DNA of 64,000 nucleotides from Crossaster papposus (lineage: Eukaryota; Echinodermata; Asteroidea; Velatida; Solasteridae), in contig JBAIAA010000401.1 of assembly GCA_037893245.1 (NCBI GenBank), forward strand, positions 434,001 to 498,000. The letters run 5' to 3'. The notes beneath the pieces are model-generated. The model ran no database searches, had not been told where the DNA came from, and saw only the letters and a program-made list of their open reading frames with translations. The translations under genes and the position numbers were made by a program. Positions 11,490 through 59,429 of this stretch are shown here, piece by piece. Position 1 is the first letter of the stretch; each line of letters begins with the position of its first letter.

Positions 11490-11860
11490 GGCTTTTTCGC
11501 AATTTTGCGAAAAAGCCTTTGTTTTTGTTCTGATTTTTTTTTTCTTCTTCTTCTTTTTTCTCTTTTAGTAACCTAAACCCCATAGACTTTGTGCACGTTT
11601 TTTTGCACAAGTACTTTTACCAGAAAACAAAGTCGTATTTCCATAAAACTTAACCCAGGTGAAGACCCTATAGTGAACTCGTGTCTCGCAGAAATACGTC
11701 ATGGTGACGTCATCAGGGGTCACGTGACGTCATCTTAAAGGTGTAATTGATTTAATCTTTGAAATTCAATAACAAATTAACCCCAAAAGACCGAAACTAA
11801 ATTTTTGTGGCAATAGATAGAATAATCCAGGATCTTAATTTTATCTCGTGTGCGTGAAAT

Positions 11861-11893
11861 CACGTGACCCTTCCTTCCGGTCTAAACCGGAAG
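11861..11893. promoter_or_regulatory. E-box plus inverted ETS pair (representative)
   Basis: CACGTG at 11861-11866 is followed by CTTCCGGT (11874-11881) and its inverted partner ACCGGAAG (11886-11893). The pair forms an 8-bp stem with a 4-base loop, so it is both a double ETS site and a small hairpin. The block recurs two or more times per A unit. B units keep the E-box but lack the ETS pair. Confidence 0.5.
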
Positions 11894-11984
11894 TGCCTCA
11901 TAATTTGAAAGTGAAAAATGATATGAACTTACTTTCAACGATGTTAGTGTCTGGCTACAATGTATTTTTCAAAAAAAATATTGG

Positions 11985-11992
11985 TGACGTCA
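11985..11992. promoter_or_regulatory. CRE palindrome TGACGTCA (representative)
   Basis: A perfect CREB/ATF palindrome. TGACGTCA recurs several times per unit in both A and B types, often doubled within 20 bases (for example 52270-52277 and 52290-52297). It is the most conserved motif shared by all subfamilies. Confidence 0.5.
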
Positions 11993-12002
11993 TAACATGT
12001 TA

Positions 12003-14003: not shown

Positions 14004-16491
14004 TCTTTTGTTTTTTTTCTTTTAGTAACCTAAACTCCATAGACTTTGTACACGTTTTTTTGCACAAGTACTTTTACCAGAAAACAAAGTCGTATTTCCA
14101 TAAAACTTAACCCAGGTGAAGACCCTATAGTAATCTCGTGCCTAGCCGACATACGACATGGTGACGTCATCAGGGGTCACGTGACGCCATCTTAAAGGTG
14201 CAATTGATTTAATCTTTGAAAATCAATAACAAATCAACCGCAAAAGACCGAAACTAAATTTTTGTGGCAATAGATAGAATAATCCAGGATCTTAATTTTA
14301 TCTCGTGTGCGTGAAATCACGTGACCCTTCCTTCCGGTCTAAACCGGAAGTGCCTCATAATTTGAAAGTGAAAAATGATATGAACTTACTTTCAACGATG
14401 TTAGTGTCTGGCTACAATGTATTTTTCAAAAAAAATATTGGTGACGTCATAACATGTTATAGCGCCCTCTAGCGGCAGTTTGAAAAATTGTTAAAATGAA
14501 TAATCTGTTGATGTGTGTGGCGAAGTTTGCTGAAATCACTTTATAACCGGTGTATTTAATCAGCTTCATGCTAGGAACAAGTTGACGGGAAGAAAAAATT
14601 ATGACGTCACCAGACCTAAAGTTGAAAATGAAAAGACTCGTTTTCCTTTGAAAATTCCTAAAAAATTAAACCTGACAGATACAATCTTGATTTTTGCTCT
14701 AAAGGTTAATGTAAAAGTAGTTCTCGAACTTCCCTGTGTTTTGGGGCAAAAAACGAACTTGAACATACCCTGCGGCACCCTTGAAATGTAATCGTTTTGG
14801 CCTAGGTGCAAAAAGCATTGACCCCTTACGTGTGCATGGCACCCGTATAATATACATGCTAGTACATGTACGTATACACTGATAGTGTATTATGTATTGA
14901 GCGAATGTATCACCACTGACATCGTTGGTGCAAGCACATGTACGCTCACCCAAGAGGACACTAGCCGCCAACCTGTGAAACAGGATGACGTCATCAAATT
15001 GCCCATGGGGAAGGGCGCCGCGTACGACAGGTAGTTAAACACGCTTTCGGCTACGCAGAATCCAACCCCGTAGACTTTGTAAACGTTGCTTGCACAATTC
15101 AAAGCACTTTTAACGGAAAAACAAAGTCGTATTCCCATAAACTTGACCCAGGTGAAGACCCAATAGTGAACTGGTGTCTCGCAGACAGACGTCATGATGA
15201 CGTCATCAGGAGTCACGTGACGTCATCTTAAAGGTTCAATTGATTTTATCTTTGAAAATCAATAAAACATCAACCGCAATTGACCGAAACTTGAATTTTG
15301 TGGCAATTAATAGAATAATCCAGGATCTTCATTTTATCTCGTGTGCGTGAAATTACGTGACCCTTCCTTCCGGTCAAAACCGGAAGTGCCTTATAATTTG
15401 AAAGTGAAAAATGATATGAACTTACTTTTAACGATGTTATTGTCTGGCTAGAATAAACTATTCAAAAAAATTCGGGCGACGTCATAACATGTTATAGCGC
15501 CCTCTAGCGGCAGGTTGAAAATGGTTAAAATGATTAATCTGTTGATGTGTGTTGCGAAGTTTGCTGAAATAACTTTATAACTGGTGTATATAATCAGCTT
15601 CATGCTTAGACCATATTGGGAAGGAGAAATATTTATGACGTCACCAAACCGGAAGTTACAATAAAAAATCCTTTAAACTGTAAAAAGTCGCTTAAAAATC
15701 AACCGCTATAGATATATCCAGATTTTTGCTTCAAATAGCAAAGTTAAGACTGATCTCGAGTTTCTGTTAATTACGTCACAATGACGTCATCAAGTGTCAG
15801 ATTACAAGCAACCAAATATTTCTAAATTTAATCTTTGAAAATCAATATAAAATCAACTGTAAGAGATCTGATTTAGATTTTTAGGATAATTGATAGATTA
15901 ATCCATGGTCTTCATAATTTGTATTACATGCAAAAAGACCTGACACTTCCTTCCGGTCCAAACCGGAAGTTCCTTATGAGCGCCATGAGCGCCGTTTTAC
16001 GGCGGATACCGGCGCTATATAAGTCTTCTATGTATGTATGTATGTATAATTTAAAAGTAAAAAACGATGTGAACTTACTTTCAACGATGTTAGGAGCTGG
16101 CTAGGTTGTAAGTAACAAAAATGTTAACAGTGACTTCATAAAATGTTAAAGCGCCCTCTAGCGTCATGTTGACAAATGTTACGTCATGTTACCATTATGT
16201 TTGAATTATTACGTTTTTCGACCTTTAAGTCATATCTCAGCAACGGAACGTGCTAACATAACATACGTTTGTATTGTTAGGTGATAGATAGTTGCACAAA
16301 AGTTCACAAACGTGTGACGTCATCGTTTTAATCAGTTTGGATTCATTTTAATCTGTTTAAATTAACTTAAATTCGTTTTCGATGATTTTAAATTATTTTG
16401 ATGGTATAAAAGTTCAATTTTTGAAAAATTTAATCTAAAAAATTGCGAAAGCGAAAAAGCCCTATGTTCTGTTCCTCGAACAGACGTAGTT
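14004..16491 (+). mobile_element. Array unit 2 (type A, duplicate of unit 1)
   Basis: It lacks the 5' hairpin and begins directly with the pyrimidine run. 14246-16215 repeats 11789-13758 at an offset of 2457 bp with no difference noticed. The 3' stem-loop is at 16468-16487, but CTAG is missing: the next 5' hairpin starts at 16492 directly after GTAGT. This looks like a junction deletion of about six bases. Confidence 0.8.
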
Positions 16492-19077
16492 GGCTTTTTC
16501 GCAAATTTGCGAAAAGGCCTTTGTTTTTGTTCTGATTTTTTTTTTCTTTTTGGCTTTTTCGCAATTTTGCGAAAAAGCCTTTGTTTTTGTTCTGATTTTT
16601 TTTTTGGCTTTTTCGCAATTTTGCGAAAAAGCCTTTGTTTTTGTTCTGATTTTTTTTTTTCTTCTTTTTTTCTTTTAGTAACCTAAACCCCATAGACTTT
16701 GTGCACGTTTTTTTGCACAAGTACTTTTACCAGAAAACAAAGTCGTATTTCCATAAAACTTAACCCAGGTGAACCCCCTATATTGAACTCGTGTCTCGCA
16801 GAAATACGTCATGGTGACGTCATCAGGGGTCACGTGACGTCATCTTAAAGGTGTAATTGATTTAATCTTTGAAATTCAATAACAAATCAACCGCAAAAGA
16901 CCGAAACTTAATTTTTGTGGCAACAGATAGAATAATCCAGGATCTTAATTTTATCTCGTGTGCGTGAAATCACGTGACCCTTCCTTCCGGTCTAAACCGG
17001 AAGTGCCTCATAATTTGAAAGTGAAAAATGATATGAACTTACTTTCAACGATGTTAGTGTCTGGCTACAATGTATTTTTCAAAAAAAATATTGGTGACGT
17101 CATAACATGTTATAGCGCCCTCTAGCGGCAGTTTGAAAAATTGTTAAAATGAATAATCTGTTGATGTGTGTGGCGAAGTTTGCTGAAATCACTTTATAAC
17201 CGGTGTATTTAATCAGCTTCATGCTAGGAACAAGTTGACGGGAAGAAAAAATTATGACGTCACCAGACCGGAAGTTAGAATGAAAAGACTCCTTTTCCTT
17301 TGAAAATTCCTAAAAAATTAAACCTGACAGATACAATCTTGATTTTTGTTCTAAAGTTTAATGTAAAAGTAGTTCTCGAACTTCCCTGTGTTTTGGGGCA
17401 AAAAACAAACTTGAACATACCCTGCGGCACCCTTGAAATGTAATCGTTTTGGCCTAGGTGCAAAAAGCATTGACCCCTTACGTGTGCATGGCACACGTAT
17501 AATAGGGGTGTATATGCCTGTATATGTACGTACGTATACACTGATAGTGTACTATTCATTGAGCGAATGTATCACTACTGACATCGTACGTGCATGCAAA
17601 TGTACGCTCACCCAAGAGGACACTAGCCGACAACCAGCGAAACAAAATGACGTCATCAAATTGCCTATGGGGAAGGGCGCTGTGTGCGACAGGTAGGTAA
17701 ACACGCTCTCGGCTACGCATAATTCAATCCCATAGACTTTGTAAACGTTGTTTGCACAATTACAAGCACTTTTAACAAAAAACAAAGTCGTATTTCCATA
17801 AAACTTAACCCAGGTGAAGACCCTATAGTAAACTCGTGTCTGGCAGACCTACATCATGGTTACGTCATCAGGGGTCACGTCACGTCATCTTAAAAGTGAA
17901 ATTGATTTAATCTTTAAACATCAATAACAAATCAACCACAAAAGACCGAAACTTGATTTGTGTGGCAATAGATAGAACAATCCAGAATCTTCATTTTATC
18001 TCGTGTGCGTAAAATCACGTGACCCTTCCTTCCGGTCCAAACCGGAAGTGCCTCATAATTTAAAAGTGAAAAATGATATGAACTTACTTTCAACGATGTT
18101 AGTGTCTGGCTAGAATAAACTTTTCAAAAAAAAAATCGGCGACGTCATAACATGTTATAGCGCCCTCTAGCGGCAGGTTGGAAAATGGTTAAAATGCAGA
18201 ATCTGTTGTGTGTGGCGAAGTTTGCTGAAACCACTTTATAACCGGTGTATATAATCAGCTGCATGCTTAGACCATATTGGGAAGGAGAAATATTTATGAC
18301 GTCACCAAACCAGAAGTTACAATGAAAAATCTTTTAAACCTTAAACAATCGCTTTAAAATCAACCGCTATAGATATAATCCAGATTTTTGCATCAGATAG
18401 CAAATTAAAGACAGCTCTCGAGCTTTCTGTTAATTACGTCACGATGACGTCATCAAATGTCAGATTACAAGCAACCAAATATTTCTAGATTTAATCTTTG
18501 AAAATCAATATAAAATAAACTGTAAGAGATCTGATTCAGATTTTTAAGGGAATTGGTCTTCATAATTTGTATTACATGCAAAAAAACCTGACCCTTCCTT
18601 CCGGTCCAAACCGGAAGTGCATTATAGTTTAAAAGTGGAAAACGATGTGAACTTACTTTCAACGATGTTAGGCGCTGGCTAGGTAGTAAGTAACAAACAA
18701 GTTAACGGTGACTTTTTAAAAATGTTATAGCGCACTCTAGCGGCATGTTGACAAATGTTACATCATATTACGATTATATTTAAATTATTACATTTTTCGA
18801 ACTTTAAGCCATATCTCAGCAACGGAACGTGCTAACATAACACATACGTTTGTATTGTTAGGTGATAGATAGTTGCACAAAAAGTTCACAAACGTGTGAC
18901 GTCATCGTTTTAATCAGTTTGGATTCATTTTAATCTGTTTAAATTAACTTAAATTCGTTTTCGTTGATTTTAAATTATTTTGATGGTATAAAAGGTCAAT
19001 TTTTGACAAATTTAATCTAAAAAATTGCGAAAGCGAAAAAGCCCTATGTTCTGTTCCTCGAACAGACGTAGTTCTAG
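16492..19077 (+). mobile_element. Array unit 3 (type A, three stacked 5' hairpins)
   Basis: Three 5' hairpin modules stand in a row: 16492-16519, 16552-16579 and 16606-16633. Each is followed by TTTGTTTTTGTTCTGA and T-runs. The body follows the unit 1 plan but is diverged. CTAG is at 19074-19077. Confidence 0.8.
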
Positions 19078-20532
19078 TTTTTTTTGGCTTTTTCGCAATT
19101 TTGCGAAAAAGCCTTTGTTTTTGTTCTGATTTTTTTTTTTCTTTCTTTTTTTTCTTTTAGTAACCTAAACTCCATAGACTTTGTACACGTTTTTTTGCAC
19201 AAGTACTTTTACCAGAGAACAAAGTCGTATTTCCATAAAACTTAACCCAAGTGAAGACCCCATAGTAAGCTCGTGCCTAGCCGACATACGTCACGGTGAG
19301 GTCATCAGGGGTCACGTGACGTCATATTAAAGGTGTAATTGATTTAATCTTTGAAATTCAATAACAAATCAACCGCAAAAGACCGAAACTTAATTTTTGT
19401 GGCAATAGATAGAATAATCCAGGATCTTGATTTTATCTCGCGTGCGTGAAATCACGTGACCCTTCCTTCCGGTCTAAACCGGAAGTGCCTCATAATTTGA
19501 AAGTGAAAAATGATATGAACTTACTTTCAACGATGTTAGTGTCTGGCTACAATGTATTTTTCCAAAAAAATATTGGTGACGTCATAACATGTTATAGCGC
19601 CCTCTAGCGGCAGGTTGAAAATGGTTAAAATGATTAATCTGTTGATGTGTGTTGCGAAGTTTGGTGAAATAACTTTATAACTGGTGTATATAATCAGCTT
19701 CATGCTTAGACCATATTGGGAAGGAGAAATATTTTTGACAACACCAAACCGGAAGTTACAATGAAAAGACCTTTAAACCTTAAAAAAATGCTTAAAAATC
19801 AACCGCGATAGATATAATCTAGATTCTTGCTTCAAATAGCAAAGTTAATACAGCTCTCGAGCTTTCTGTTAATTACGTCCAGATGACGTCATCAAGTGTC
19901 AGATTACAAGCAACCAAATATGTCTAGATTTAATCTTTGAAAATTGATATAAAATCAACTGTAAGAGATCTGATTTAGATTTTTAAGAGAATTGATAGAT
20001 TAATCCATGGTCTTCATAATTTGTATTACATGCAAGAAGACCTGACCATTCCTTCCGGTTTAAACCGGAAGTGCCTTATAGTTTAAAAGTGGAAAACGAT
20101 GTGAACTTATTTTCAACGATGTTAGGCGCTGGCTAGGTTGTAAGTAACAACAAAGTTAACGGTAAATTCATAAAATGTTATAGTGCCCTCTAGCGGCATG
20201 TTGGCAAATGTTACGTCATATTACAATTATATTTGAATTATTACGTGTTTAGACCTTTAAGCCATATCTCAGCAACGAAACGTGCTAACATAACAACTTT
20301 TTGTATTGTTAGGGGATAGATAGTTGCACAAAAAGTTCACAAACGTGTGACGTCATCGTTTTAATCAGTTTGAATTAATTTTAATCTGTTTAAATTAACT
20401 TAAATTCGTTTCCAATGATTTTAAATTGTTTTGATGGTATAAAAGTTCATTTTTTGAAAAATTTAATAAAAAAAAAAAAATGCGAATTCGAAAAAGCCCT
20501 ATGTTCTGTTCCTCGAACAGACGTAGTTCTAG
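19078..20532 (+). mobile_element. Array unit 4 (type A, short)
   Basis: 5' hairpin at 19086-19113 and CTAG at 20529-20532. At 1455 bp it lacks the ~400-bp block (present in unit 1 at about 12241-12660) and one internal module, so it is an internal deletion form. Confidence 0.8.
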
Positions 20533-23318
20533 TTTTCTTTTCTTTTAGTAACCTAAACCCCATAGACTTTGTACACGTTTTTTCTGCCCGTCACTTTTAA
20601 TCGAAAACAAAGTCGTATTTACATAAAACTTAACCCAGGTGAAGACCCCATAGTGAACTCGTGTCTCGCAGAAATACGTCATGGTGACGTCATCAGGGGT
20701 CACGTGACGTCATCTTAAAGGTGTTATTGATTTAATCTTTGAAATTCAATAACAAATCAACCGCAAAAGACCGAAACTTAATGTTTGTGGCAATAGATAG
20801 AATAATCCAGGATCTTGATTTTATCTCGCGTGCGTGAAATCACGTGACCCTTCCTTCCGGTCTAAACCGGAAGTGCCTCATAATTTGAAAGTGAAAAATG
20901 ATATGAACTTACTTTCAACGATGTTAGTGTCTGGCTAAAATATATTTTTCCAAAAAAAATTGGTGACGTCATAACATGTTATAGCGCCCTCTAGCGGCAG
21001 TTTGAATAATGGTTAAAATGAATAATCTGTTGATGTGTGTGGCGAAGTTTGCTGAAATCACTTTATAACCGGTGTATTTAATCAGCTTCATGCTAGGAAC
21101 AAGTTGACGGGAAGAAAAAATTATGACGTCACCAGACCGGAAGTTAGAATGAAAAGACTCTTTTTCCTTTGAAAATTCCTAAAAAATTAAACTTGACAGA
21201 TACAATCTTGATTTTTGCTCTAAAGGTTAATGTAAAAGTAGTTCTCGAACTTCCCTGTGTTTTGGGGCAAAAAACGAACTTGAACATACCCTGCGGCACC
21301 CTTGAAATGTAATCGTTTTGGCCTAGGTGCAAAAAGCATTGACCCCTTACTTGTGCATGGCACACGTATAATATACATGCTAGTACATGTACGTATACAA
21401 CACTGATAGTGCATTATGTATTGAGCGAATGTATCACCACTGACATCGTTCGTGCAAGCACATGTACGCTCACCCAAGAGGACACTAGCCGCCAACCTGT
21501 GAAACAGGATGACGTCATCAAATTGCCCATGGGGAAGGGCGCCGCGTACGACAGGTAGGTACCGTACACACGCTTTCGGCTATGCAGAATCCAATATCCC
21601 ATAGACTTTGTAAACGTTGTTTGCACAATTCTGAATTCCAAGCAATTTTAACGGAAAACAAAGTCGTATTGCCATAAAACTTGACCCAGGTGAAGACCCT
21701 ATAGTGAACTCCAGTCTCGCCGACAGACGCCATGATGAAGACGTCATTAGGGTCACGTGACGTTATCTTAAAGGCGCAATAGATTTAATCTTTAAAAATC
21801 AATAACAGATCAACCACAAAAACCCTGAACTCTAATTTTGTGGCAATAGATAGAATAATCTAGGATCATCATTTTATCTCGTGTGCGTGAAATCACGTGA
21901 CCTTTCCTTCCGGTCAAAACCGGAAGTGCCTTAGACTTTGTAAACGTTGCTTGCACAATTCCAAGCACTCTTAACGGAAAACAAAGTCGTATTCCCATTA
22001 AACTTGACCCAGGTGGAGACCCTATAGTGAACTCCAGTCTCGCCGATAGACGCCATAATGAAGACTTCATCGGGGTCACGTGACGTCATAAAATAAAAAT
22101 AATTAAAGGTGTAATTGATTTAATCTTTGAAAATCAATAAAATATCAACCGCAAAAGACCGAAACTTGAATTTTGTGGCAATAGATAGAATGACCCAGGA
22201 TCTTCATTTCATCTCGCGTGCGTGAAGTCACGTGACCCTTCCTTCCGGTCCAAACCGGAAGTGCCTTATAATTTAAAACTGGAAAATGATATGAACTTAC
22301 TTTCAACGATGTTAGTGTCTGGCTAGAATAAACTTTTCAAAAAAATTACCGGCGACGTCATAACACGTTATAGCGCCCTCTAGCGGCAGGTTGAAAAATT
22401 GTTAAAATGCATAATTTGTTGATGTGTGTGGCAAAGTTTGCTGAAATAACTTTATAACCGGTGTATATAATCAGCTTCATGCTTAGACCACATTGGGAAG
22501 GAGAAATATTTATGACGTCACCAAACCGGAAGTTACAATACAAAATCCTTTAAACTTTAAAAAGTCGCTTAAAAATCAACCGCTATAGATATAATCCAGA
22601 TTTTTGCTTCAGATAGCAAAGTTAAGACTGATCTCGAGTTTCTGTTAATTACGTCACAATGACGTCATCAAGTGTCAGATTACAAGCAACCAAATATTTC
22701 TAAATTTATTCTTTGAAAATCAATATAAAATCAACTATGAGAGATCTGATTTAGATTTTAAAGGAAATTGATAGATTAATCATGGTCTTCATAATTTGTA
22801 TTACATGCAAAAAGACCTGACACTTCCTTCCGGTCCAAACCGGAAGTGCCTTATAATTTGAAAGTTGAAAATGATATGAATTTACTTTCAACGATGATAG
22901 TCTCTAGGTAGCCTGCACTCTACAAACAAAGTTACCGGTGACGTCATAAATTGTTATAACGCCCTCTAGTGACAGGTTGAAAAATGTTTAAAATGAATAA
23001 TCAGTTCATTTTCGTTGCGAAGTTTGCTCAAATCGCTTTATAATTGGTATTTATAATCAGCATCTTGTTAGGAACAAGTTGGCGGATAAAAACAAAATAA
23101 TATGACGTCACTAGACCGGAAATTACAATTAAAAAACCTTTAAACATTTCTGAAAATTAAGTGCGAGAGATATAATCCAATTAATAATTTAAAATTTGCA
23201 GTTTTGAAAAAATTAAAGTAAAGAAATTTATTAAATGAAATCATAAATGTAATGAACAATACAACAAATAAATGCGAAAAAGCCATATGCTCTGTTCCTT
23301 GAACAGACATATCTCTAG
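20533..23318 (+). mobile_element. Array unit 5 (type A, variant 3' end)
   Basis: It has no 5' hairpin. The 3' end is the variant GCGAAAAAGCCATATGCTCT with stem-loop then CTAG at 23315-23318. The stretch 21414-22160 is nearly identical to unit 17 on both sides of the insertion there, and supplies that insertion's empty site at 21738-21750. Confidence 0.8.
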
Positions 23319-24485
23319 TTGGCTTTTCCGCAAACAGCGGAAAAGCCTTTCTTTTTGTGTTCATTTTTTTTCTTTCTTCTTCTTTTTGTCGCCTAAATCC
23401 CATAGACTTTGTACACGTTTTTTCTGCGTGCCACTTTTGCTATTAATCTTGGCCATACATCATTCAAATTAAGCATAGTCATAGTCCTTATAGCAGAGAT
23501 GTGTCCCGAAGAGTAACGTCATGGTGACGTCATCGACTAATTTATTATAGATTTTTGAATATTTAATTTCTCCCATAGACTTTGTGCACAAAAATTAAGA
23601 AAACATTGTCGATTTTCAAAGGGCATTTTCGACTGTTTGCCAGTAATTCATTTATATCACTCTTTGTCCAAGCAAAGACCCTAATTCAAACAACATTGTG
23701 TAATGATGACGTCATGATGACGTCATGAGGTGTTTATTTATAGGCAATTAAATTGTGACACTTTTGATATTTAAAAATGCATAAGAAATCAACCGTACGC
23801 GCCCGCAGCATTCTGTTGCCGGCAAGTGGTAGAGTAGGTTGAGGTCTTTATTTCATTCAGTGTGCGTGAAATCACGTGACCCTTGCTTCCGGTCGAAAAA
23901 GGCCAAAACCGGAAGTGGCTTATTATTTGAAAGTGGTAATAGATATGAACTTGCTTTCAACGGTGTTGGCCTCTTGGCTAATAGTATTCTTGAAATCATC
24001 TACCAATGACGTCATTTTATTTTCTAGCGCCCTCTAGCAACAGGTTGAAAATTTTCAAAAATGTATTTTGAATAGATGTTTGTGGCGAAGTTTGTCGGAA
24101 TCGCCTAAATATTGGTGTGTATGATGACCTTGACCAACTTAAGATGTGTGCGAAGTTTTAGGCGCATGACGTCATCAGACCGGAAGTTCTGTTGAAAAGA
24201 CCTTTCCTTTTTCAAAAATTGCTGACACATATCAATCCGTACAGATATAATCTTGAATTGTCCATTAAATTATAGCGTAAACATTTGCCTCAACAGTCTC
24301 AAGTTCCCAGCTTTTCAAAATTTTCACACAATTGACGCGGCGTCGCGAAAAAAAATGCCCTTGCGCAAGTTGCGGCAGAGAGCTTTAAAACATGCCAGGA
24401 CTTCCACATGTGTAGCACGTACACGTGGCTTTGAAACGTCGTACAGTGTACATTACGTCCCTTCATTCTCGCCAAAAGAGGGCAG

Positions 24486-24790
24486 TACATAACTTTAACG
24501 GTTGTATTAGCTGTGCAAGGCCAGGCAACGTAAAACGAGCGGGCAGCATCTTATTACATGTAACACTTTTACGGGATCAAAAGGATAGCGCGTTACAAAA
24601 CAAAATAACGGCCCACCATTCGCCAATCAGTAACTTTAACGATTGTACGGGCGCACAGGCTAAGCTGTGCAAGGCCTCGTAAGCCTGAACTGAACACTTT
24701 TACGGGATCAAAATAAGGACAGCGCGTCACCCAACAAATATAGCCTCACACCGTGAAAAGTGAATGGCGCCCCCATTCGCCAATCAGTAG
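24486..24790 (+). repeat. ~170-bp diverged tandem duplication
   Basis: Two copies share, in order, AACTTTAACG, AGCTGTGCAAGGCC, CACTTTTACGGGATCAAAA, ACAGCGCGT or ATAGCGCGT, and ATTCGCCAATCAGTA. They lie in the unrelated interior of unit 6. GCCAATCAG is a CCAAT-box-like element repeated in both. Confidence 0.65.
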
Positions 24791-27190
24791 ATTTTTGTTC
24801 TGCGTTATAGGTGCCGGGGAAGGGCAAACAGACAGATGCCGTTTTTTTCTTAGTATACATGTAGATGTCATAATGGGACCCAGTGCATCATCTTAAAGGT
24901 GTACACTCTGGAAGTCCTAAATCTATATATGTATAACAACAACAGCACATACAATAATAATGCATTCAAAACAAAAACATCACCTCAATTAAAAAAAAAA
25001 TAATGCAGAAAATCAAATCTCAAAGCCGTTGCACAAACATTTTTTGTTAAAGGAAATGACTGCACTAATTTATGTTATTGAAACTTCACACAATCATATT
25101 ATTTATTCAAATGAGTACGTGCTCAGATAATTAGTCTCATTACACTCCACCCCCGTGGTCACCCTGCCTTTGCTTCGCTTGCCGGGACCTGTTTACAGTG
25201 TGCAAGGCCTAGCTGGACAGGGTCAAGTCGATTGTGCCCACCCCAACATCCACCCTACGCTGCTTCGGTGGGGTAGCGAATTTTCTTTTCCCAAACTACA
25301 TCCAGTAATATAGGGTTTTTGAGTGCCCTCTATGATACTTTTATTTTTGGACCGTGAGGCTATGGTTCTAAATTTTCAATATCCGTATTTATCCATTTTT
25401 TCCATTAAATTTTAGGCTTTGGAGGATTTTCTTGTTTTTAAGGGAAATAGAGTCCCGAATTTCATTAGGGTCAAATTAATTTCTTTTGTTCTTATTTTGT
25501 ATTTTGTCTCTTTTGTTTTCAAAGAGAAGACAGTGAAGTCCAAAACGTCATAGTTTAAAGCCCAAAACGTTGTACGTAAACCCCCATTCGCGATGTAGTT
25601 CGGGAAAATAAATTGCCCCTGTGACTCAAAAAAGAACGTTTAACCTCAAAGTAAGGAATTTAGAAAATAAAGAGTGCATTAGAATATTGTCATCGTGAGC
25701 AATAATCACAACCATAATTCCAAATTTAATCGTGTAGCTTGATCTTAAATTACTATTATCTTCAAAAATTGCTTTACAAATATCAGTTTTTCCAAGTTCC
25801 TGTTTTTAAATATGTTACCGTTTAGCTGTTATTTACTCTAAGTAATTTACTGTCACAAAATTTTACAAGATACAATCACATAACCTATCATCACAAACAC
25901 AAATTTCACCAAAACCATTTCTTTTCATCCTGTCAGTTGAAAGACACCCCCCCCCCCCGCAACAACAAAAACCCACTAATCAACACAATAGAATATTGTA
26001 AGTAATCCGTGTTACTCAACCAAAATACTCCATTTACAAGTGAAACAAAAACTACAAATTTAATTGATCATCCTGACACACTCTTTACAAATTAGCTCCA
26101 AACATTAAGGTTCACTTTTTCTTCACTTTCTGAACAGATTTCAACTGTTTTGTCATTATTTACAGTAAACCCACATTATACTATTTAACTCCACATTACT
26201 TTACAACATTAACGAATTTCCCCAAATCATTTCCTTTTATTATTGAAAGCCATCGGATCAGGATGTGCCCCCTCCCAAGAAAAGAAATATCTACTTAGTC
26301 AACACAGCATAAGACAAAATTGCAATTAATCACTTTAACTCAACCTAATTTTAGTAGTAACACCAAAACTCCAAATGTAATTAATCATGTAACAAATCTT
26401 AACATATTTCCGTTATCTCCAGATATATGTCTTCCTCTTTTAATTATTCTTCTTGTTTTAACATAGTTTGAACTGTTTTGCCATAATTATTCACTTTATT
26501 GTAAATGCCATCATTTACACTTTAAACTATAATCACAGCAAAAATTCCAAAAAATGATTTATATTCATCATGCTGTAATTTCAAATGCTTTTTTTTGTTT
26601 GTTATATTCTATCCTGTAATTGTCAATAAAAACTTCCTTTTTGACAAAAACAAAAATTGCTTGCTGTTTGCCGTCTCTTTCTATTCCAAATTCCATACAC
26701 TTTACACCAGAATTTCATTCTCACCTTCATGGCACGTCGATTTAAAAGAAGACTATTGCCACAAAACTTTCCATAGATCAACCCCCATAGTTTTACATAC
26801 ATGTATAATTATCATCTTATATAAAATTATCATGACCAGCTTTTGTCTTAAGAACTATCAATTGCCATATAACATCGTACTATCAGCAGATGAGTTCATA
26901 TATGGTGCAACATCTTTCATGGCCACCCATGAACTCTACATCACTGAAAATATGAGCATTTGTTCGTACACCACATTAATAGACGAAAATAGGATAAGTT
27001 GAACACTATGCCAATTAAACTTTGGAATACTGCTTTAAGATACATGCTTTACTTTTATGAACTGCAATGTTTATTCAAAAATCTTTTCTAGACATAATTG
27101 TACAAAAATGTGAGAAATTCTAAATTCGAAAGTATTTTGAACTGACTGGACATATACACACAAAAGCATGAACTCATTAAATTATCATAA
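24791..27190. other. Interior of unit 6 without recognisable gene
   Basis: AT-rich sequence with short C-runs (near 25950). A 135-codon plus-strand frame (26595-27002) is the longest here. Its product would be rich in F, I, Y and C with no motif, and it sits in an AT-rich context where such frames are expected by chance now and then. No repeat family recognised. Confidence 0.4.
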
Positions 27191-27248
27191 TTATTATGCG
27201 GAAAAGCCCTGTGTTCTGTTGCAAACAGACATAGATCTCTAGTTCTAG

Positions 27249-34491: not shown

Positions 34492-34593
34492 TTAGCTGTT
34501 TCGGCACTTCAGCCGAAACAGCTATTGTAATCGTTAAGATTTTTTTTTAGCTGTTTCGGTTTTCCACCGAACCAGCTTTTGTTTTCGTTAAAG

Positions 34594-34624
<31 letters not shown>

Positions 34625-34723
34625 TAGCTGTTTCGGTTTTTCACCGAAACAGCTTTTGTTTTCGTTAAAGTTTTTTTTTTAGCTGTTTCGGTTTTCCACC
34701 GAAACAGCTTTTGTTTTCGTTAA

Positions 34724-34780
<57 letters not shown>

Positions 34781-38126: not shown

Positions 38127-38129
38127 TTT

Positions 38130-38167
<38 letters not shown>

Positions 38168-44860: not shown

Positions 44861-45203
44861 ACTGATGGCCGATGGCAGTTTGCCTAAAGGTCACATTCTT
44901 GCCCGCCGATTTGCCCTTAATAATAAGGTACCAGTTTTGTGGCAGTGACCTCGCATACCACAGAAAAACCGTTACTGCTGTGTGACTCGACTGTGAGCCA
45001 CATTTGAATTTTGGAGACGGATCGAGCAGGTACCTCGCACATCGTTTTACATGAAAACAACTGGTTATTCGTGGATATAAATGCAGTTTGCCTGTCAACA
45101 TACAACTAAAGTTTATTCCTGTAACGCAAGCCTTTGCTGAATGACTGTAGCTTTCTTTGAAAGGAATTTTAAGTTACGTGCAGACAAACATTCTGTTTAA
45201 CTG

Positions 45204-45209
45204 GTAAGT
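45204..45209 (+). other. Possible splice donor
   Basis: CTG followed by GTAAGT, a near-consensus donor in the unique centre of the 3187-bp element. It would pair with the acceptor at 45661-45662, giving an intron of about 460 bp. Confidence 0.25.
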
Positions 45210-45662
45210 TCATTGTTATTCAAATCTTATGCCCAATTTTCCACTTGTAACGTTTTACGACACGGTTTAGATTACTTGAAATTTTACACTGCTGTATGGC
45301 TTTTTGTGAGTGTTGATCTGTGAGTCAACCTATTCATTAATTTTGTTTCCATGCAACAAACGGCTATATTTTGGCATCATTTGGCCAATTTCAAATTCGC
45401 TCGGGCGTAAAAAAAAATTGTAAATGGGAATATAAAGAAGAGACAACCATCTTTGTGGATTGCAACTCCGGTCAGCAATTTTGAACTTAATCATGCTGAC
45501 TGTTTTTATTTTAAAGTTCTTGTTGGCCTACATTTGGGACATTTCGTGACTGAAAACATTGAAAGCTAAAATGCTGGATGAGTCTTCAAAATGCATACGT
45601 CTTTCAGACCGTATTTGCTTTTTCTTGGTTTTGTTTATTTGTTTATTTATTTTATGTTTTAG

Positions 45663-45793
45663 GAGCCACCAAGAAGAACAGTCAAACCGATACTGAGGAA
45701 TCGAAGCGCACAGGCTGGCTAGCGACAAGGTTGGACCATGGACATGACAGAGATGAGACAGCGGATCAGCGAGCACACTTGAAGACGAAGTAA
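45663..45793 (+). CDS. Possible terminal exon inside the 3187-bp element
   Basis: A pyrimidine-rich tract ending TTTTAG (45661-45662) is followed by a 43-codon open stretch rich in K, R, D, E and T (from GATKKNSQTDTEESKR on) that ends TAA at 45791-45793. A polyadenylation signal AATAAA stands at 45930-45935. The composition contrasts with the F-rich, AT-rich frame upstream of the acceptor, as expected at an intron-exon border. I do not recognise the product. It may be a captured host exon, part of an element gene, or chance. Confidence 0.25.
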
Positions 45794-45929
45794 TCAAGAA
45801 ACAAGCTGCCGCAATTAAGTTAGTCACTGAGCAAAACAAATAAGGAAATAATTGTTAAACTGTTTCGGTTACATGTTTAGGAAGTATACTTGTTGATAGT
45901 TTTAATCATGTTAATATCTACAGTGGTAA

Positions 45930-45935
45930 AATAAA
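45930..45935 (+). terminator. AATAAA polyadenylation signal candidate
   Basis: AATAAA 137 bases after the stop of the possible exon, followed by a T-rich stretch. It is suggestive only in combination with the splice signals upstream. Confidence 0.25.
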
Positions 45936-46723
45936 GACTATTTCATTCATCGTGCATTTGTAAATTTTGGCAAACCACATTTCATGGCGTTTTAACCTGC
46001 CTGTCAAATTATATTTCCCAGGTACTTAACGATTATTTCATCCGAGTTATTTCAAAGACGAGTGGCTTGGCCGTGATGCAATAGACTTAAATCCAGATGT
46101 AGTATATTTAGTATTTTTACCAATTTACCCATCACAAAGATTCCCACAGCTAATTGTGCTACACTATAATATAAAGCTCTGTACACATGGACATAATGTT
46201 TAGTCGGACTCATTTATAGTTTAGATATTTTTTTCAGAGAAATAAAAAAGGTGTTTATTAGGTCCTGTTTGGGGAAACAGTATATCCTAGAAATATCCAT
46301 CAAAGAAACCATTCTATGATCATAATCTGCATAGCTTGGATTAACTAAACCGTATTTTGTAAAAGAGACATATTGTTAGTAAACCCAGTTCTCTTATGGC
46401 ATCGAGTTGGCCGTGCATTTGACTCACAAATCATGTTTTAAAATAATATAAATTATTAAAAAGTTCCAAATAATTATTACCATTGCGAATTCTGGTTATT
46501 AAAGTACGTTTTGACAAAACACACGTACAACTGTTTGTCACTGGTTTTGCATGCTTTCTTCTATTCCCACGACCTGAATTTGCTATAGTATATCCGGTCC
46601 GTAATATCCCACAATAAACCGATTTTATAGTGTGGGTGCTCCTAATTTAATTTAATTGAAATGAATCGAATTAAATTGAATAATGATCGAGCCCATGCTA
46701 ACTTGTGTACAAGACATTTTGCC

Positions 46724-47118
46724 AACTTATAACCCGGTTAAAGCACAGAATGAGCCCACACAGGACCCACATAGGACCCGCATGAATTTATGTGGGCTTG
46801 CCCATTTGGGGCCCAACTGGCGCCGGCGGACAAATCTCTGTGGGCCCCAACTGGGCAGCCCACATGGGACCCATGAGGGAGCCCATTTGGAGCCCACTTG
46901 GGCCCCATGTGGGGCCCACTTATACCCCGGTTAAAGCTCAGAAGGGACCCACACAGGACCCACATGGGACCCACACGGGGCCCACATGAATTTATGTGGG
47001 CTTGCCCATTTGGGGCCCAAGTGGCGCCGGCGGACAAATCTCTGTGGGCCCCAACTGGGCAGCCCACATGGGACCCATGAGGGAGCCCATTTGGGCCCCA
47101 TGTGGGGCCCACTAGGGA
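46724..47118 (+). repeat. Direct repeat of GGGCCC-rich block
   Basis: Two copies (about 46727-46918 and 46922-47113) each start TATACCCCGGTTAAAG or TATAACCCGGTTAAAG, pass through CATGAATTTATGTGGGCTTG and GGCGCCGGCGGACAAATC, and end in GTGGGGCCCACT. The second copy directly adjoins the right end of the element. Confidence 0.85.
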
Positions 47119-48690
47119 ATGTTGACTGGGTAGGGTCACGTGACGTTATCTTAAAGGCGCAATAGATTTAATCTTTAAAAATCAATAACAGATCAACCAC
47201 AAAAACCCTGAACTCTAATTTTGTGGCAATAGATAGAATAATCTAGGATCATCATTTTATCTCGTGTGCGTGAAATCACGTGACCTTTCCTTCCGGTCAA
47301 AACCGGAAGTGCCTTAGACTTTGTAAACGTTGCTTGCACAATTCCAAGCACTCTTAACGGAAAACAAAGTCGTATTCCCATTAAACTTGACCCAGGTGGA
47401 GACCCTATAGTGAACTCCAGTCTCGCCGATAGACGCCATAATGAAGACTTCATCGGGGTCACGTGACGTCATAAAATAAAAATAATTAAAGGTGTAATTG
47501 ATTTAATCTTTGAAAATCAATAAAATATCAACCGCAAAAGACCGAAACTTGAATTTTGTGGCAATGTATAGAATAATCCAGGATCTTCATTTTATCTCGT
47601 GTGCGTGAAATCACGTGACCCTTCCTTCTGGTCCAAACCGGAAGTGCCTTATAATTTAAAAGTGAAAAATGATATGAACTTACTGTTAACGATGTTAGTG
47701 TCTGGCTAGAATGTATTTAAAAAAACAAACACCGGCGACATCAGAACACGTTATAGCGCCATCTAGCGGCAGGTTGGAAAATTGTTAAAATGAATAATCT
47801 GTTGATGTTTGTGTCGAAGTTTGCTGAAACCACTTTATAACTGGTGTATATAATCAGCTTCATGCTAAGACCATATTGGGAAGGGGAAATATTTATGACG
47901 TCACCAAACAGGAAGTTACAATGAAAAATCCTTTAAACCTTTAAAAATCGCTTAAAAATCAACCGGGATAGATATAATCCAGATTTTTGCTTCAAATAGC
48001 AAAGTTAAGACAGCTCTCGAGCTTTCTGTTAATTACGTCACGATGACGTCATCAAGTGTCAAATTACAATCAACCAAATATTTATAGATATAATCTTTGA
48101 AAATCAATATAAAATCAACTGTAAGAGATCTGATTTAGAATTTTAGGGGAATTGATAGACTAATCCATGGTCTTCATAATTTGTGTTGGATGCAAAAAGA
48201 CCCGACCCTTCCTTCCGGTCCAAACCGGAAGTGCCTTATAATTTAAAAATGGAAAACGATGTGAACTTACTTTCAACGATGTTAGGCGCTGGCTAGGTTG
48301 TAAATAACAACAAAGTCAACGGTGACTTCATTAAATGTGATAGCGTCCTCTATCGGCATGTTGACAAATGTTACATCATATTACGATTATATTTAAATTA
48401 TTACGTTTTAAGACCTTTAAGCCATATCTCAGCAACGGAACGTGCTAACATAACACATCTGTTTGTATTGTTAGGTGATGGATAGTTGCACAAATAGTTC
48501 ACAAACGTGTGACGTCATCGTTTTAATCTGTTTGAATTCATTTTAATCTGTTTAAATTAACTTAAATTTGTTTTCAATGATTTTAAATTGTTTTGATGGT
48601 ATAAAAGTTCAATTTTTGAAAAATGTAATCTAAAAAATTGCGAATGCGAAAAAGCCCTATGTTCTGTTCCTCGAACAGACGTAGTTCTAG

Positions 48691-50145
48691 TTTTTTTGGC
48701 TTTTTCGCTAAAAAGCGAAAAGGCCTTTGTTTTTCTTCTGTTTGTTTTTTTAGCTGTTTCGGCACTTCAGCCGAAACAGCTATTGTATTCGTTCTGATTT
48801 TTTTTTTTTTTTTTTTTTTTTTTCTCCTTCAGACTCTTTTCCATAGGGTTTGTACACGTTTTTTGTTCTGGCATAGCACTTTGGCACTTTGGTAAATCGG
48901 ATCGACTTGAGACTTGGCATACACTTAGACCACCACCCACAGATGATCCTAGAAGAAATTTGTCACGATTACGTCATTCGTGGTCACGTGACGTCACGTT
49001 AAAGGTGCAATTTTTCCCCATAGGATTTGTACACGTTTTTCTTCAGAATATTGAATTTGACACTTCGGTGAATCCGATCGACTTGAGACTTAAGACACAC
49101 CTCGACTACCATCCCCAGAGGGGCCAGAAGAAAAATCGTCACGATGACGTCATCGTGGGTCATTTGACGTCACATTAAAGGTGCAGTTTATAAGACCCTC
49201 TATCTCTGGAAGTAAAGGTCTGATTGGGGTCAAACTTGGTATGCAAGTATTCCAGGATGTGTTATAGACGAAAATTAAGATGACGTCATGACGACGTCAT
49301 CATGGGCCATGTGACGTCACATTAAAGGTTCAGTTTTCCCTATAGGTTTTGTACACGTTTTTCGTCAGACTATTGAATTTGACACTTTGGTAAATCCAAT
49401 CGACTCGAGACTTAGTACACGCCTCGACCACCATCTCTATGAGGGCCACAAGGATAATCGTCATGATGACGTCATCGTGGGTCAGGTGACGTCACTTTAA
49501 AGGTGTAGTTTTTAAGACCCTCTATCTCTGGAAGTAAAGGTCTGATTGGTGTCAAACTTGGTATGCAAGTATTCCAGGATGTGTTATAGACGGAAATTAA
49601 GATGACGTCATGACGACGTCATCGTGGGCCATGTGACGTCACGTTAAAGGTGCAGTTTTTCCCATAGGATTTGTACACGTTTTTCGTCAGACTATTGAAT
49701 TTGACACTTTGGTAAATCCAATCGACTCGAGACTTAGTACACACCTCGACCACCATCTCTATGAGGGCCACAAGGATAATCGTCATGATGACGTCATCGT
49801 GGGTCAGGTGACGTCACTTTAAAGGTGTAGTGTTTAAGACCCTCTATCTCTGGAAGTAAAGGTCTGATTGGGGTCAAACTTGGTATGCAAGTATTCCAGG
49901 ATGTGTTATAGACGGAAATTAAGATGACGTCATGACGACGTCATCGTGGGCCATGTGACGTCACGTTAAAGGTGCAGTTTTTCCCATAGGATTTGTACAC
50001 GTTTTTTGCAACCAAGATATATTTGGCACTTTGGTAAATCCGATCGACTTCAGATTTGGTACACACATAGACCACCACTCACATATTCAAAGTCATTTTT
50101 AGACAAGCGAAACAGCTCTGTGTTTGTCCACAAACACATTTCTAG
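48691..50145 (+). mobile_element. Array unit 18 (hybrid start A then B; type B body)
   Basis: An A-type hairpin (48698-48725) is followed 26 bases later by a B-type hairpin (48752-48781); body and 3' end are B type, CTAG 50142-50145. This is a direct record of two subfamilies inserted or recombined at the same junction. Confidence 0.8.
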
Positions 50146-54598: not shown

Positions 54599-57005
54599 TT
54601 TCTTCTTCTTGTTCTTGTCCCATAAATCGCATAGACTTTGTACACGTTTCTTCTGGAGGTCACTTTTGTCATTAAACATACTTCAATTTCATTGAAACTT
54701 TGCACATACTCAGAACTCATACTGAGCTAGTGCCTAAAACTCGGATGTCATCATGACGTCATCACGTGACACGTGACGTCATCTTAAAGTTTTAATAATT
54801 TAATCTTTGAAAATCTATACAAAATCAACCGCGAAAGACCGTAACTAGATGTTTGTGGGAATCGATAGAATAATTAAGGATCTTCATTTTATCTCGTGTG
54901 CGTAAAATCACGTGACCCTTCCTTCCGGTCCAAACCGGAAGTGGCTTATAATTTGAAAGTGGAAAATGATTTGAACTTACTTTCAACGATGTTAGTCTCT
55001 AGCTAGGCTGCGCTCTCCAAAAAAGTGACCGGTGACGTCATAAATTGTTTTAGCGCCCTCTAGCGGCAGGTTGAAAAATGTTTAAAATGAATAATCAGTT
55101 GATGTGTGTGGCGAAGTTTGTTCAAATCACTTTATAACTGATGTATATAATCAGCTTCATGATAGGAACAGGTTGACGGAAAGAAAAAAATATGACGTCA
55201 CCAGACCGGAAGTTATAATGAAATTACCTCTTTTCCTTTAAAAATACCTAAAAAATTAACCCAGACAGATATAATCTTGTTTTTTGCTCTAAAGGTTAAT
55301 GTAAAAGTACTTCTCAAACTTTCCTGTGTTTTGTAGCAAAAGGCGAACTTGGACATACCCTGAGACACCCTTGAAATGTCATGTTTTATGTCCTTGATTG
55401 CACGGCGCCAGTATACGTGTACATTGTATTGAGCGTACTTGCACGTACGATGTCAGTACGCTCCATACATTGTACAATAGAGAAGGGAAGGAGGGACACT
55501 GGTATCCATTTGTACGGTGACATGTGAAACACGAGAGTCATCAACATAGGCCACGAGGAAGGGCGCCGCTTATGGCAGGTAGGTAAACGTGCCTTCGGCA
55601 ACGCAGAACTACGCGTGAATTATACATGTACCATATAATAGATGTACGCGAACTTTTGCACAAGTACTTTTAACAGAAAACAAATTGGTATTCTCATCAA
55701 ACTTAACCTCCGTAAATACTCTATAGTGCACTCGTGCCTTGCGGACAGGCGTCGTGATGACGTCACCATGGGTCACGTGACGTCGTCTTAAACGTGCAAT
55801 AGATTTAATGTTTGAAAATTAATAAAAAAATCAACCGCGTATGATCGGAACTTGAAGTTTGTGGGAATTGATATAATATTAAATCCACGATCTTCATTTT
55901 ATCTCGTGTGCGTGAAATCCCGTGACCCTTCCTTCCGGTCGAAACCGGAAGTGGCTTATAATTTAAAAGTGGACCATAATGTGAACTTAGTTTCAACGAT
56001 GTTAGTCTCTGGCTAGTAGTGCTTTTCACAAAAAATACCGGTAACGCCATAACATGTTACAGCGCCCTCTAGCGGCAGTTTGAAAACTGTTAACAATGAA
56101 TAACCAGTTGATTTGTTTTGCGAAGTTTGCTCAAATCACTGTATAACTGGTTTATATAATCAACATCTTGTTAGGAACAAGTTGGCGAAGACAAAAAAAT
56201 ATGACGTCACTAGACCGAAAGTTACAATGAAAAGACCTTTAAACCCTAAATAATTGCTGACAAATCAACCGCGATAGATATAATTCTTTTTTTGCTTTAA
56301 ATAGACAAGTTCAGACAGCTCTCGAGCTGTATGTTAATGACGTCACGATGACGTCATCAAGTATTAGATTGCAAGCAACTAATGATTTGTAGATTTAATC
56401 TTTGAAAATCAATATCAAATCAAATGTAACAGATCTGATTTAGATTTTAACGGGAATTGATAGAATAATCCAGGGTCTTCATATTCGTATTACATGCAAA
56501 ATGACTTGACCCTTCCTTCCGGTCCAAACCGGAAGTGCCTTATAATTTGAAAGTTAAAAATGATATGAATTTACTTTCAACGATGATAGTCTCTAGGTAG
56601 CCTGCACCTACAAACAAAGTTACCGGTGACGTCATAAATTGTTATAACGCCCTCTAGTGGCAGGTTGAAAAAAATTTTAAATGAATAATCAGTTTGTTTT
56701 CGTGGCGAAGTTTGCTCAAATCGCTTTATAATTGGTATTTATAATCAGCATCTTGTTAGGAAAAAGTTGGCGGATAAAAACAAAATAATATGACGTCACT
56801 AGACCGGAAATTACAATTAAAAAACCTTTAAACATTTCTGAAAATTAACCGCGAGAGATATAATCCAATTAATAATTTAAAATTTGCAGTTTTGAAAAAA
56901 TTAAATAAAGACATTTATTAAATGAAATCATAAATGTAATGAACAATACAAAAAAAAAATGCGAAAAAGCCATATGCTCTGTTCCTTGAACAGACATATC
57001 TCTAG
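54599..57005 (+). mobile_element. Array unit 22 (type A, variant 3' end, most diverged)
   Basis: Begins TTCTTCTTGTTCTTG like unit 15. The ~400-bp block (about 55280-55620) is strongly diverged here. The 3' third matches unit 5. CTAG 57002-57005. Confidence 0.8.
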
Positions 57006-59429
57006 TTTTTCTTTTCTTTTAGTAACCTAAACCCCATAGACTTTGTACACGTTTTTTTCTGCCCGTCACTTTTAATCGAAAACAAAGTCGTATTTACATA
57101 AAACTTAACCCAGGTGAAGACCCCATAGTGAACTCGTGTCTCGCAGAAATACGTCATGGTGACGTCATCAGGGGTCACGTGACGTCATCTTAAAGGTGTA
57201 ATTGATTTAATCTTTGAAAATCAATAACAAATCAACCGCAAAAGACCGAAACTTAATTTTTGTGGCAATAGATAGAATAATCCAGGATCTTGATTTTATC
57301 TCGCGTGCGTGAAATCACGTGACCCTTCCTTCCGGTCTAAACCGGAAGTGCCTCATAATTTGAAAGTGAAAAATGATATGAACTTACTTTCAACGATGTT
57401 AGTGTCTGGCTACAATGTATTTTTCCAAAAAAAATTGGTGACGTCATAACATGTTATAGCGCCCTCTAGCGGCAGTTTGAATAATGGTTAAAATGAATAA
57501 TCTGTTGATGTGTGTGGCGAAGTTTGCTGAAATCACTTTATAACCGGTGTATTTAATCAGCTTCATGCTAGGAACAAGTTGACGGGAAGAAACAATTATG
57601 ACGTCACCAGACCGGAAGTTAGAATGAAAAGACTCTTTTTCCTTTGAAAATTCCTAAAAAATTAAACTTGACAGATACAATCTTGATTTTTGCTCTAAAG
57701 GTTAATGTAAAAGTAGTTCTCAAACTTCCCTGTGTTTTGGGGCAAAAAACGAACTTGAACATACCCTGCGGCACCCTTGAAATGTAATCGTTTTGGCCTA
57801 GGTGCAAAAAGCATTGACCCCTTACGTGTGCGTGCCACACGTATAATATACATGCTAGTACATGTACGTATACACCGATAGTGCATTATGTATTGAGCGA
57901 ATGTATCACCACTGACATCGTTCGTGCAAGCACATTTACGCTCACCCAAGATGACACTAGCCGCCAACCTGTGAAACAGGATGACGTCATCAAGTTGCCC
58001 ATGAGGAAGGGCGCCGCGTACGACAGGTAGGTAAACACGCTTTCGGCTACGCAGAATCCAACCCCGTAGACTTTGTAAACGTTGCTTGCACAATTCAAAG
58101 CACTTTTAACGGAAAAACAAAGTCGTATTTCCATAAACTCGACCCAGGTGAAACCCCAATAGTGAACTCCAGTCTCGCCGACAGACACCACGAGGAAGAC
58201 GTCATCAGGCCCACGTGACCTTATCTTAAAGGTGCAATTGATTTAATCTTGGAAAATCAATAAAACATCAACCGCAAAAGACCGAAACTTGAATTTTGTG
58301 GCAATTAATCGAATAATCCAGGATCTTCATTTTATCTCCCGTGCGTGAAATCACGTGACCTTTCCTTCCGGTCAAAACCGGAAGTGCCTTATAATTTGAA
58401 TGTGAAAAATGATATGAACTTACTTTCAACGATGTTAGTGTCTGGCTAGAATAAACTATTCAAAACAATTCCGGCGACGTCATAACATGTTATAGCGCCC
58501 TCTAGCGGCAGGTTGAAAATTGTTAAAATGATTAATCTGTTGATGTGTGTTGCACAGTTTGCTGAAATAACTTTATAACTGGTGTATATAATCAGCTTCA
58601 TGCTTAGAGCATATTGGGAAGGAGAAATATTTATGACGTCACCAAACCGGAAGTTACAATAAAAAAATCCTTTAAACTTTAAAAAGTCGCTTAAAAATCA
58701 ACCGCTATAGATATAATCCAGATGTTTGCTTCAAATAGCAAAGTTAAGACTGATCTCGAGTTTCTGTTAATTACGTCACAATGACGTCACCAAGTGTCAG
58801 ATTACAAGCAACCAAATATTTATAAATTTAATCTTTGAAAATCAATATAAAATCAACTGTAAGAGATCTGATTTAGATTTTTAAGGAAATTGATAGATTA
58901 ATCCATGGTCTTCATAATTTGTATTACATGCAAAAAGACTTGACACTTCCTTCCGGTCCAAACCGGAAGTGCCTTATAATTTAAAAGTGGAAAACGATGC
59001 TAACTTACTTTCAACGATGTTAGGCGCTGGCTAGGTTGTAAGTAACAAAACAGTTAACAGTGACTTCATAAAATGTTAAAGCGCCCTCTAGCGTCATGTT
59101 GACAAATGTTACGTCATATTACGATTATATTTGAATTATTACGTTTTTAGACGTTGAAGGCATATCTCAGCAACGGATCGTGTTAACATAACACCTCATT
59201 TTGTGTTGTTAGGTGATAGATAGTTGCACACAAAGTTCACAAACGTGTGACGTCATCGTTTTAATCAGTTTTAAATCATTTTACTCTGTTTAAATTAACT
59301 TAAATTAGTTTTCAATGATTTTAAATTGTTTTGATGGTTTAAAAGTTCAATTTTTAAAATATTTAATAAAAAAAAATTGTGAATGCGAAAAAGCCCTATG
59401 TTCTGTTCCTCGAACAGACGTAGTTCTAG
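57006..59429 (+). mobile_element. Array unit 23 (type A, last unit)
   Basis: Starts with a pyrimidine run nearly identical to that of unit 5, has a full A body, and ends with stem TCTGTTC (59402-59408) and GAACAGA (59412-59418), then CTAG 59426-59429. After it comes TTAGCGCC, so GGTTAT|TTAGCGCC or similar would be the original uninserted site. Confidence 0.8.

Follow-up and report, generated by a model that had tools for sequence, protein, structure and literature searches.

Array architecture and end families

How does a block of some 48 kb come to be filled with mobile-element units that all face the same way? The question is raised by a 64,000-nt stretch of the Crossaster papposus genome (assembly GCA_037893245.1, contig JBAIAA010000401.1, positions 434,001–498,000; G000:C401:434001-498000), referred to below as the window and numbered from its first letter, in which an earlier note made from the letters alone had seen a single-orientation array of at least 23 Helentron-like units. 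Our reading, to which we give a probability of about 0.8, is that the array grew largely by nested insertion of HINE-type Helentrons into the T-rich tracts behind the 5′ hairpins of related elements, with duplication and end-bypass superimposed. Searches outside the window were made in the whole 1.02-Gb assembly (1841 contigs).

End and hairpin patterns together with self-BLAST gave 23 units (U1–U23), all on the + strand between 11488 and 59429 and ranging in length from 580 to 5963 bp. CTAG followed by T closes 22 of the 23, U2 alone differing with GTAG followed by TT at 16489, and a perfect stem-loop stands shortly before the CTAG in 21 of those 22; U12 closes at an internal CTAG (36944–36947) without a stem-loop. 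No inverted copy was found inside the array among the 2000 self-BLAST matches listed for the window, and the 22 inverted matches in that list all fall outside it. The earlier count of units, the stem-loop closure by CTAG and T in 21 of 23 and the lack of inversion are therefore borne out. The longest stop-to-stop frame within the array is 218 aa, and an Rfam scan of the window yielded nothing reaching the gathering score.

The units carry two main end families, A and B, and U6 has a variant of its own, so that of the three mixed end types described earlier the mixture stands and the number is refined. In family A the 5′ hairpin runs from GGCTTTTTCGC to GCGAAAAAGCC and the 3′ end consists of a GCGAAAAAGCC subterminal inverted repeat (subTIR), a stem-loop and CTAG; in family B the hairpin runs from AGCTGTTTCGG to CCGAAACAGCT and the 3′ end consists of a CGAAACAGCT subTIR, a stem-loop and CTAG. 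The 5′ hairpin sits 2 nt behind the junction, and the 3′ subTIR begins 45 nt from the element end in family A and 39 nt from it in family B. Classes A1 and A2 are distinguished by the hairpin tail and the start of the body. U6 has a matched pair of variant ends (GGCTTTTCCGC at 5′, GCGGAAAAGCC at 3′), and as the 5′ and 3′ subTIRs vary jointly a functional pairing of the two appears likely. Genome-wide, the A-type end pattern GCGAAAAAGCCN{28,32}CTAGT gave 1303 + 1108 (2411) matches and its reversed-pattern control 0.

Assignment to HINE-type Helentrons

HINEs are defined in passages of PMC4067079 by a palindromic 5′ subTIR a few nt inside the terminus and a 3′ subTIR 38–60 nt from the 3′ end, and the HINEs treated there (mite HINE-Mo, DINE-1) have a 3′ palindrome, no coding capacity and T-rich targets without target duplication. 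The array units resemble these HINEs in each respect: the 5′ and 3′ subTIRs lie at the distances given above, 21 of the 23 ends have the 3′ palindrome, the longest frame is as stated and in 4/4 loci where an A element sits inside a B element (see below) it lies between T runs. A canonical Helitron (Helitron1), with 5′-TC, 3′-CTRR, A/T insertion and no inverted repeats, was rejected because the units have 5′ TTGGC or TTAGC hairpins, an inverted counterpart at the 3′ end and T–T junctions, although the 3′ CTAG does fit CTRR. Satellite DNA in the sense of homogenized tandem monomers was likewise rejected, given the range of unit lengths and the two end families; the best relative of a unit is a non-neighbour for 16 of the 23.

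The array lies in another repeat, of which a 36-bp inverted repeat (94%) flanks it at 11449–11484 and 59601–59636 and of which uninterrupted copies occur elsewhere in the genome. When the joined flanks of the 48-kb block were searched in the genome, 38 of the 42 matches listed crossed the join, the remainder being the array's own flanks (two) and the 36-bp inverted repeat only (two). One uninterrupted copy that was fetched (L074) aligned with the joined flanks continuously across the join, showing neither duplication nor loss. A single A1 copy was found on contig C1038 (L055), where T-rich host sequence leads into TTGGCTTTTTCGC and the hairpin is followed by a T-tract, the body, CTAG and again T-rich host sequence; in the stretch read around it, about 3.8 kb upstream and 1.5 kb downstream, no further end of either family was found (L055, L029). 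The case that the earlier note had named as fatal to a rolling-circle assignment, isolated copies never ending at CTAG, thus did not arise. The assignment of the units to HINE-type non-autonomous Helentrons is well supported by their HINE anatomy, by a lone copy whose ends are the same and by the host repeat, whose uninterrupted copies fit the joined flanks without duplication; the Helentron or Helitron2 identity proposed earlier gains further from Helentron-type Rep/endonuclease genes in the same genome (see below).

Hairpins and bodies in the window

The arrangement of the array is given by the following features.

11488–59429, +: whole array, units U1–U23, single orientation (end and hairpin patterns, self-BLAST)
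11490–11517, +: outermost 5′ hairpin of the block, class A1, marking one limit of the 48-kb insertion, of which the 3′ end at 59429 marks the other
14004–16489, +: U2, 96.7% identical to U1, a tandem duplicate without hairpin, with truncated terminus GTAG
16490–27242, +: block within the U2 terminus; left scar GTAG followed by TT, right scar TTCTAG at 27243–27248
16492–16634, +: pile of three A1 5′ hairpins ahead of U3
23319–27242, +: U6, with its own end class A3 (5′ GGCTTTTCCGC, 3′ GCGGAAAAGCC)
32618–32757, +: hairpin pile A1-A2-A2, closed in a bracket reading by U16, U15 and U9
34494–34710, +: pile of four B hairpins ahead of U10
36368–36947, +: U12, copied from 580 bp of U10 with two mismatches; it stops at an internal TATCTCTAG and has no stem-loop there
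43944–47130, unstranded: foreign sequence that entered U17 later, flanked by a TA duplication and having inverted ends like CCCAGYCARCA (uninterrupted sequence in U5 at 21740)
48698–48726, +: orphan A2 hairpin, its bracket partner being the bare U22 A2 body at 54599, with four B units between
54599–57005, +: U22, an A2 body without hairpin, preceded by a B end
59382–59429, +: rightmost 3′ end, with subTIR, stem-loop and CTAG, then the T of the surrounding repeat

Against 23 units there are only 18 hairpins in the window. Nine of these stand directly before a body, with which they share class in 9/9 cases; the other nine lie in piles of one to four in a row, and 14 of the 23 bodies have no hairpin. 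If hairpins are read as opening and hairpinless bodies as closing brackets (a stack), all nine orphan hairpins receive an orphan body of their own class, a pairing that we treat as suggestive only, and the clearest bracket is that formed by the A2 hairpin at 48698 and the A2 body of U22. A scar at U2 bears on the same point: when its GTAG, followed by TT, and the stray TTCTAG at 27243–27248 are joined they restore GTAGTTCTAG followed by TTGGC, a canonical terminus, so the stretch between them is a later block inside the end of U2. In a stack parse of the window together with eight further loci, hairpins directly before a body shared its class in 24/24 cases and 21 displaced bodies were consistent with the stack; the end patterns in this parse were tuned to U2 and U12, the ends not being part of the stack, and two ‘eA’ tokens (at 35568 in the window and 1479 in L062) are loose-pattern matches inside B units. 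The earlier description as a tandem array holds as far as repeated same-facing units are concerned, but not as a simple tandem, the array appearing largely nested.

Junctions genome-wide

Five junction patterns were searched across the genome, with reversed-pattern controls of 0 for all five. An A hairpin running into a B hairpin was found at 98 places and a B end running into a hairpinless A body at 191; a B hairpin running into an A hairpin was found at 303 and an A end running into a hairpinless B body at 360, while A hairpin to A hairpin junctions numbered 902. Nesting predicts similar counts within each pair (98 vs 191, 303 vs 360), and the counts observed were of the same order, with bare bodies exceeding split hairpins in both. 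As each list gives its first 100 places, partners were sought where the two lists overlap, which takes in 49 of the 98 A-to-B and 99 of the 303 B-to-A hairpin junctions.

For the A-to-B junctions a same-strand partner (B end, then A body) lay within 12 kb downstream in 26/49 cases and upstream in 6/49. The A1/A2 class was concordant in 25 of the 26 pairs (expected 0.59, p 2.5e-5), where one of the 49 junctions is of unassigned class, the 26 places share 23 distinct partners and p-values are optimistic, because duplicated stretches contribute dependent sites. For the B-to-A junctions a partner (A end, then bare B body) lay within 8 kb downstream in 33/99 cases and upstream in 7/99, and on the opposite strand there was one partner downstream and none upstream. 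A B-like tail is missing from about 3 of the 100 B-to-A matches listed, the start of the A body could not be classed in 3 of 100 listed matches of B end to A body, and at two places on contig C233 the upstream side lies outside the coverage. The distances for the B-to-A junctions peak at one element: 13 of the 37 within 12 kb are 2480–2535 bp, which is one complete A element, and in all four loci fetched (selected for this distance) a B hairpin and T-tract were followed by a complete A1 element of 2478–2508 bp and then by T-tract and B body. Two A-to-B loci selected for a short distance to the partner read, with h for hairpin and b for body, hA2(hA2(hB bB)bA2)bA2 (L066) and hA2(hB bB)bA2 (L067). 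What follows an A1 end, judged from the 30 best matches to one query, was a bare body in 17, a hairpin in 8 and no unit in 5, two of the latter being alike.

Such clusters are not confined to the window. Of the 2411 A ends the first 100 were listed, and 61 of these are clustered (gap of 10 kb or less), the largest cluster having 10 ends; in the same sample, adjacent pairs of ends 3 kb or less apart were on the same strand in 34 cases and on opposite strands in none, and those 5 kb or less apart in 42 and one respectively. The view in the earlier note that such an array is unusual is not sustained for this genome, where clusters of this kind are common.

Proposed mode of growth and its rivals

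Drawing on the anatomy, the uninterrupted counterpart of the site, the lone copy, the A elements between B hairpin and B body and the class agreement of split halves, we propose that an insertion into another repeat founded the block, which thereafter expanded from within. Each element carries, on its own strand just behind the 5′ hairpin, a T-rich tract which, as Helentrons insert between two Ts, could serve as a landing strip for kin of every end class; insertion into an own-strand tract would keep the orientation always the same. Each insertion would part the older hairpin from its body, so that hairpins accumulate on the left and, on the right, a hairpinless older body follows the CTAG of the newcomer, which is the bracket nesting described above. 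A Helentron protein with Rep, Hel and endonuclease functions would drive insertion by rolling-circle replication, and the brackets would give the order of insertion events inside this array; onto this would come tandem duplication, dimers formed by end-bypass and, at times, premature termination at a CTAG inside the element.

Arrays of Helitrons and Helentrons are commonly attributed to terminator bypass or rolling-circle concatemers, in which Rep overruns the 3′ terminator and head-to-tail multimers arise from one 5′ end. Dimers of one hairpin and two bodies do recur (U1-U2, U4-U5, U7-U8 and L054), and bypass is the account given of Helitron clusters in passages of PMC4067079; yet bypass alone yields neither hairpin piles nor mixed A and B classes nor class-matched halves at one-element distance, and we consider it unlikely as the main process. 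A satellite-like process without nesting, in which the array expands through slippage or unequal exchange between T-tracts, would account for the 96.7% identity of U1 and U2 and for an A-type array on contig C3 (G000:C3:1910181-1926110) in which the end positions are periodic, a mark of unequal exchange; the spacings there (1377/1407/1794, 1377/1408/1471, 1378/1407) are like those of a higher-order satellite. Against it, the best relatives in the window are mostly non-neighbours, as noted, and such growth predicts neither the agreement of A2 hairpin and A2 body across B units nor the peak at one-element distance, which makes it quite improbable. Two further readings were rejected: a simple tandem process, with insertion at the 3′ edge, does not produce hairpin piles, and pure satellite growth does not give class-matched halves. 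That dispersed copies were joined in assembly is highly improbable: most units have best relatives several percent divergent, the architecture recurs on many contigs and the flanks of the block match an uninterrupted repeat.

Several observations weigh against growth largely by nested insertion. In the window the nine same-class pairs were reached by shuffles of hairpin class in 109 of 20000 trials and of body class in 297 of 20000. The scar at 16489/27243 contradicts one of these pairs, hairpin 16492 with U8, and for that reason the in-window statistic counts as suggestive only. Bodies outnumber hairpins (23 to 18), and this excess together with the recurrent dimers indicates that duplication or end-bypass contributes; the end positions of the C3 array are periodic. 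U12, the partial copy of U10, stops internally. The parse of the window and eight loci left three class conflicts and seven bodies with an empty stack. For 23/49 A-to-B and 62/99 B-to-A junctions the lists show no partner up to 12 kb away, and in six loci taken in list order (the first three A2 and first three A1, chosen before the partner list was seen) the outer hairpin closes within 6 kb downstream in one (L064) and not in five, with a class conflict in L061. At the empty site, L074 has GGTTA-TA-AGCGCC against GGTTA-TT-AGCGCC in the joined flanks. Finally, no autonomous element with A or B ends was found, few copies having been examined.

Nested insertion into a built-in T-tract is nevertheless indicated as a major route to such arrays and would explain their single orientation, and the end classes serve as labels that separate insertion from duplication. 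The genome contains hundreds of hairpin-hairpin junctions by pattern (98, 303 and 902). Bracket order could date insertions inside a single locus. A tentative and rather doubtful extension is that selection has made the 5′ T-tract into a self-landing platform: kin landing in it would split the element yet spare its outermost hairpin and 3′ terminus, so that the composite would stay a legal Helentron. A growing composite might then be transposed or transduced whole, and its brackets would let the insertions of a rolling-circle family be read in order.

Comparison with known systems

Published work already covers HINEs, their targeting of T-rich sequence, tandem clusters and self-insertion. The HINE-Mo clusters differ from the present array in being described as possible bypass products, nesting in T-tracts with class-matched halves not being seen in passages of PMC4067079. 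The Pacific oyster Cg_HINE elements share with our units a 5′ subTIR with a complementary inverted repeat, a simple-sequence tract behind it, central repeats and TT sites, but the portions of PMC7492417 concerned describe them as dispersed, with tandem repeats at the centre of an element rather than whole elements in arrays. The Fusarium Helitron2 elements FoHeli also have asymmetric inverted ends, and for them self-insertion is proposed in parts of PMC5148889 as the origin of multiple 5′ termini; the composites there have few copies and a single 3′ terminus, whereas here many 3′ ends are kept and the halves can be matched. The long arrays of truncated Helitrons in plant centromeres, for which rolling-circle amplification is proposed (Xiong et al. 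2016, as told in an excerpt of PMC12628747), have many 5′ ends and one 3′ end, whereas here 3′ ends exceed 5′ hairpins. The internal stop of U12 resembles the de novo 3′ ends of Helraiser reported in part of PMC4778049. In the literature surveyed (titles and abstract starts, with few subscription papers) no arrays nested in the 5′ T-tract with class-matched halves were found.

Candidate autonomous partners

A Rep search scored 150 of 273 candidates. A Helentron-type Rep with the RGSPHxH signature (taken from passages of PMC4067079) was present in 7/7 loci (L045–L051) and a Helitron-type RGLPHxH Rep in 12 of 14 (L031–L044), the other two having no motif match; the endonuclease domain is C-terminal in 2/2 Helentron copies tested. 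The Rep/helicase gene flanked by the same ends that the earlier note had envisaged was searched for near a few copies and not found: an A- or B-like terminus was absent from the 5′ part of one Helentron copy (L051, L052) and from the 3′ regions of three near-identical copies (L057–L059, L068, L069), and a by-eye comparison of Rep places with the listed A-end and junction places noticed no same-strand neighbour. A reverse-oriented stretch of A-unit sequence lies 5.5 kb into L068 and L069. Many open Helentron frames of about 3100–3470 aa are present (L051 2763–9998; G000 contigs C130, C215, C388 and C694), with PHD, herpes-tegument-like, OTU protease, DUF6570 and Rep domains. Three Helentron copies are identical across at least 3.8 kb of their 3′ side, which suggests recent activity or large duplications. 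Among the best 120 of 1001 relatives of one Helentron protein, the top relative is 69% identical and those from abalone, scallop, acorn worm and sea urchin are 58–62% identical.

Other features of the window

Two foreign insertions lie within the 48 kb. That at 43944–47130 carries a 72-bp tandem repeat (9.9 copies, 44144–44856); the other, at about 32037–32460 in U8, has a 132-bp perfect tandem duplication, and similar uninterrupted sequence is found in U23. About 2.8 kb of U6 (24400–27180) has no strong match to other units (best unit match 522 bp, 68%) and is possibly captured sequence. Outside the array an inverted 0.68-kb repeat pair (2126–2803 and 4671–5334, 93% identical) contains 17-bp tandem units.

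Between 11488 and 59429 the exact CRE-like TGACGTCA occurs 177 times against 0.9 in 20 dinucleotide shuffles, and in several different contexts within A units; CACGTG occurs 66 times against 9.2 in shuffles, and GCGCCCTCTAGCGG 23 times on the + strand and 0 on the − strand against 0 in shuffles. We take GCGCCCTCTAGCGG to resemble a CTCF site, and CCGGAAGT presumably resembles an ETS site. Judged from motif content, an array in which such sites are packed in one orientation could act as an insulator or enhancer platform.

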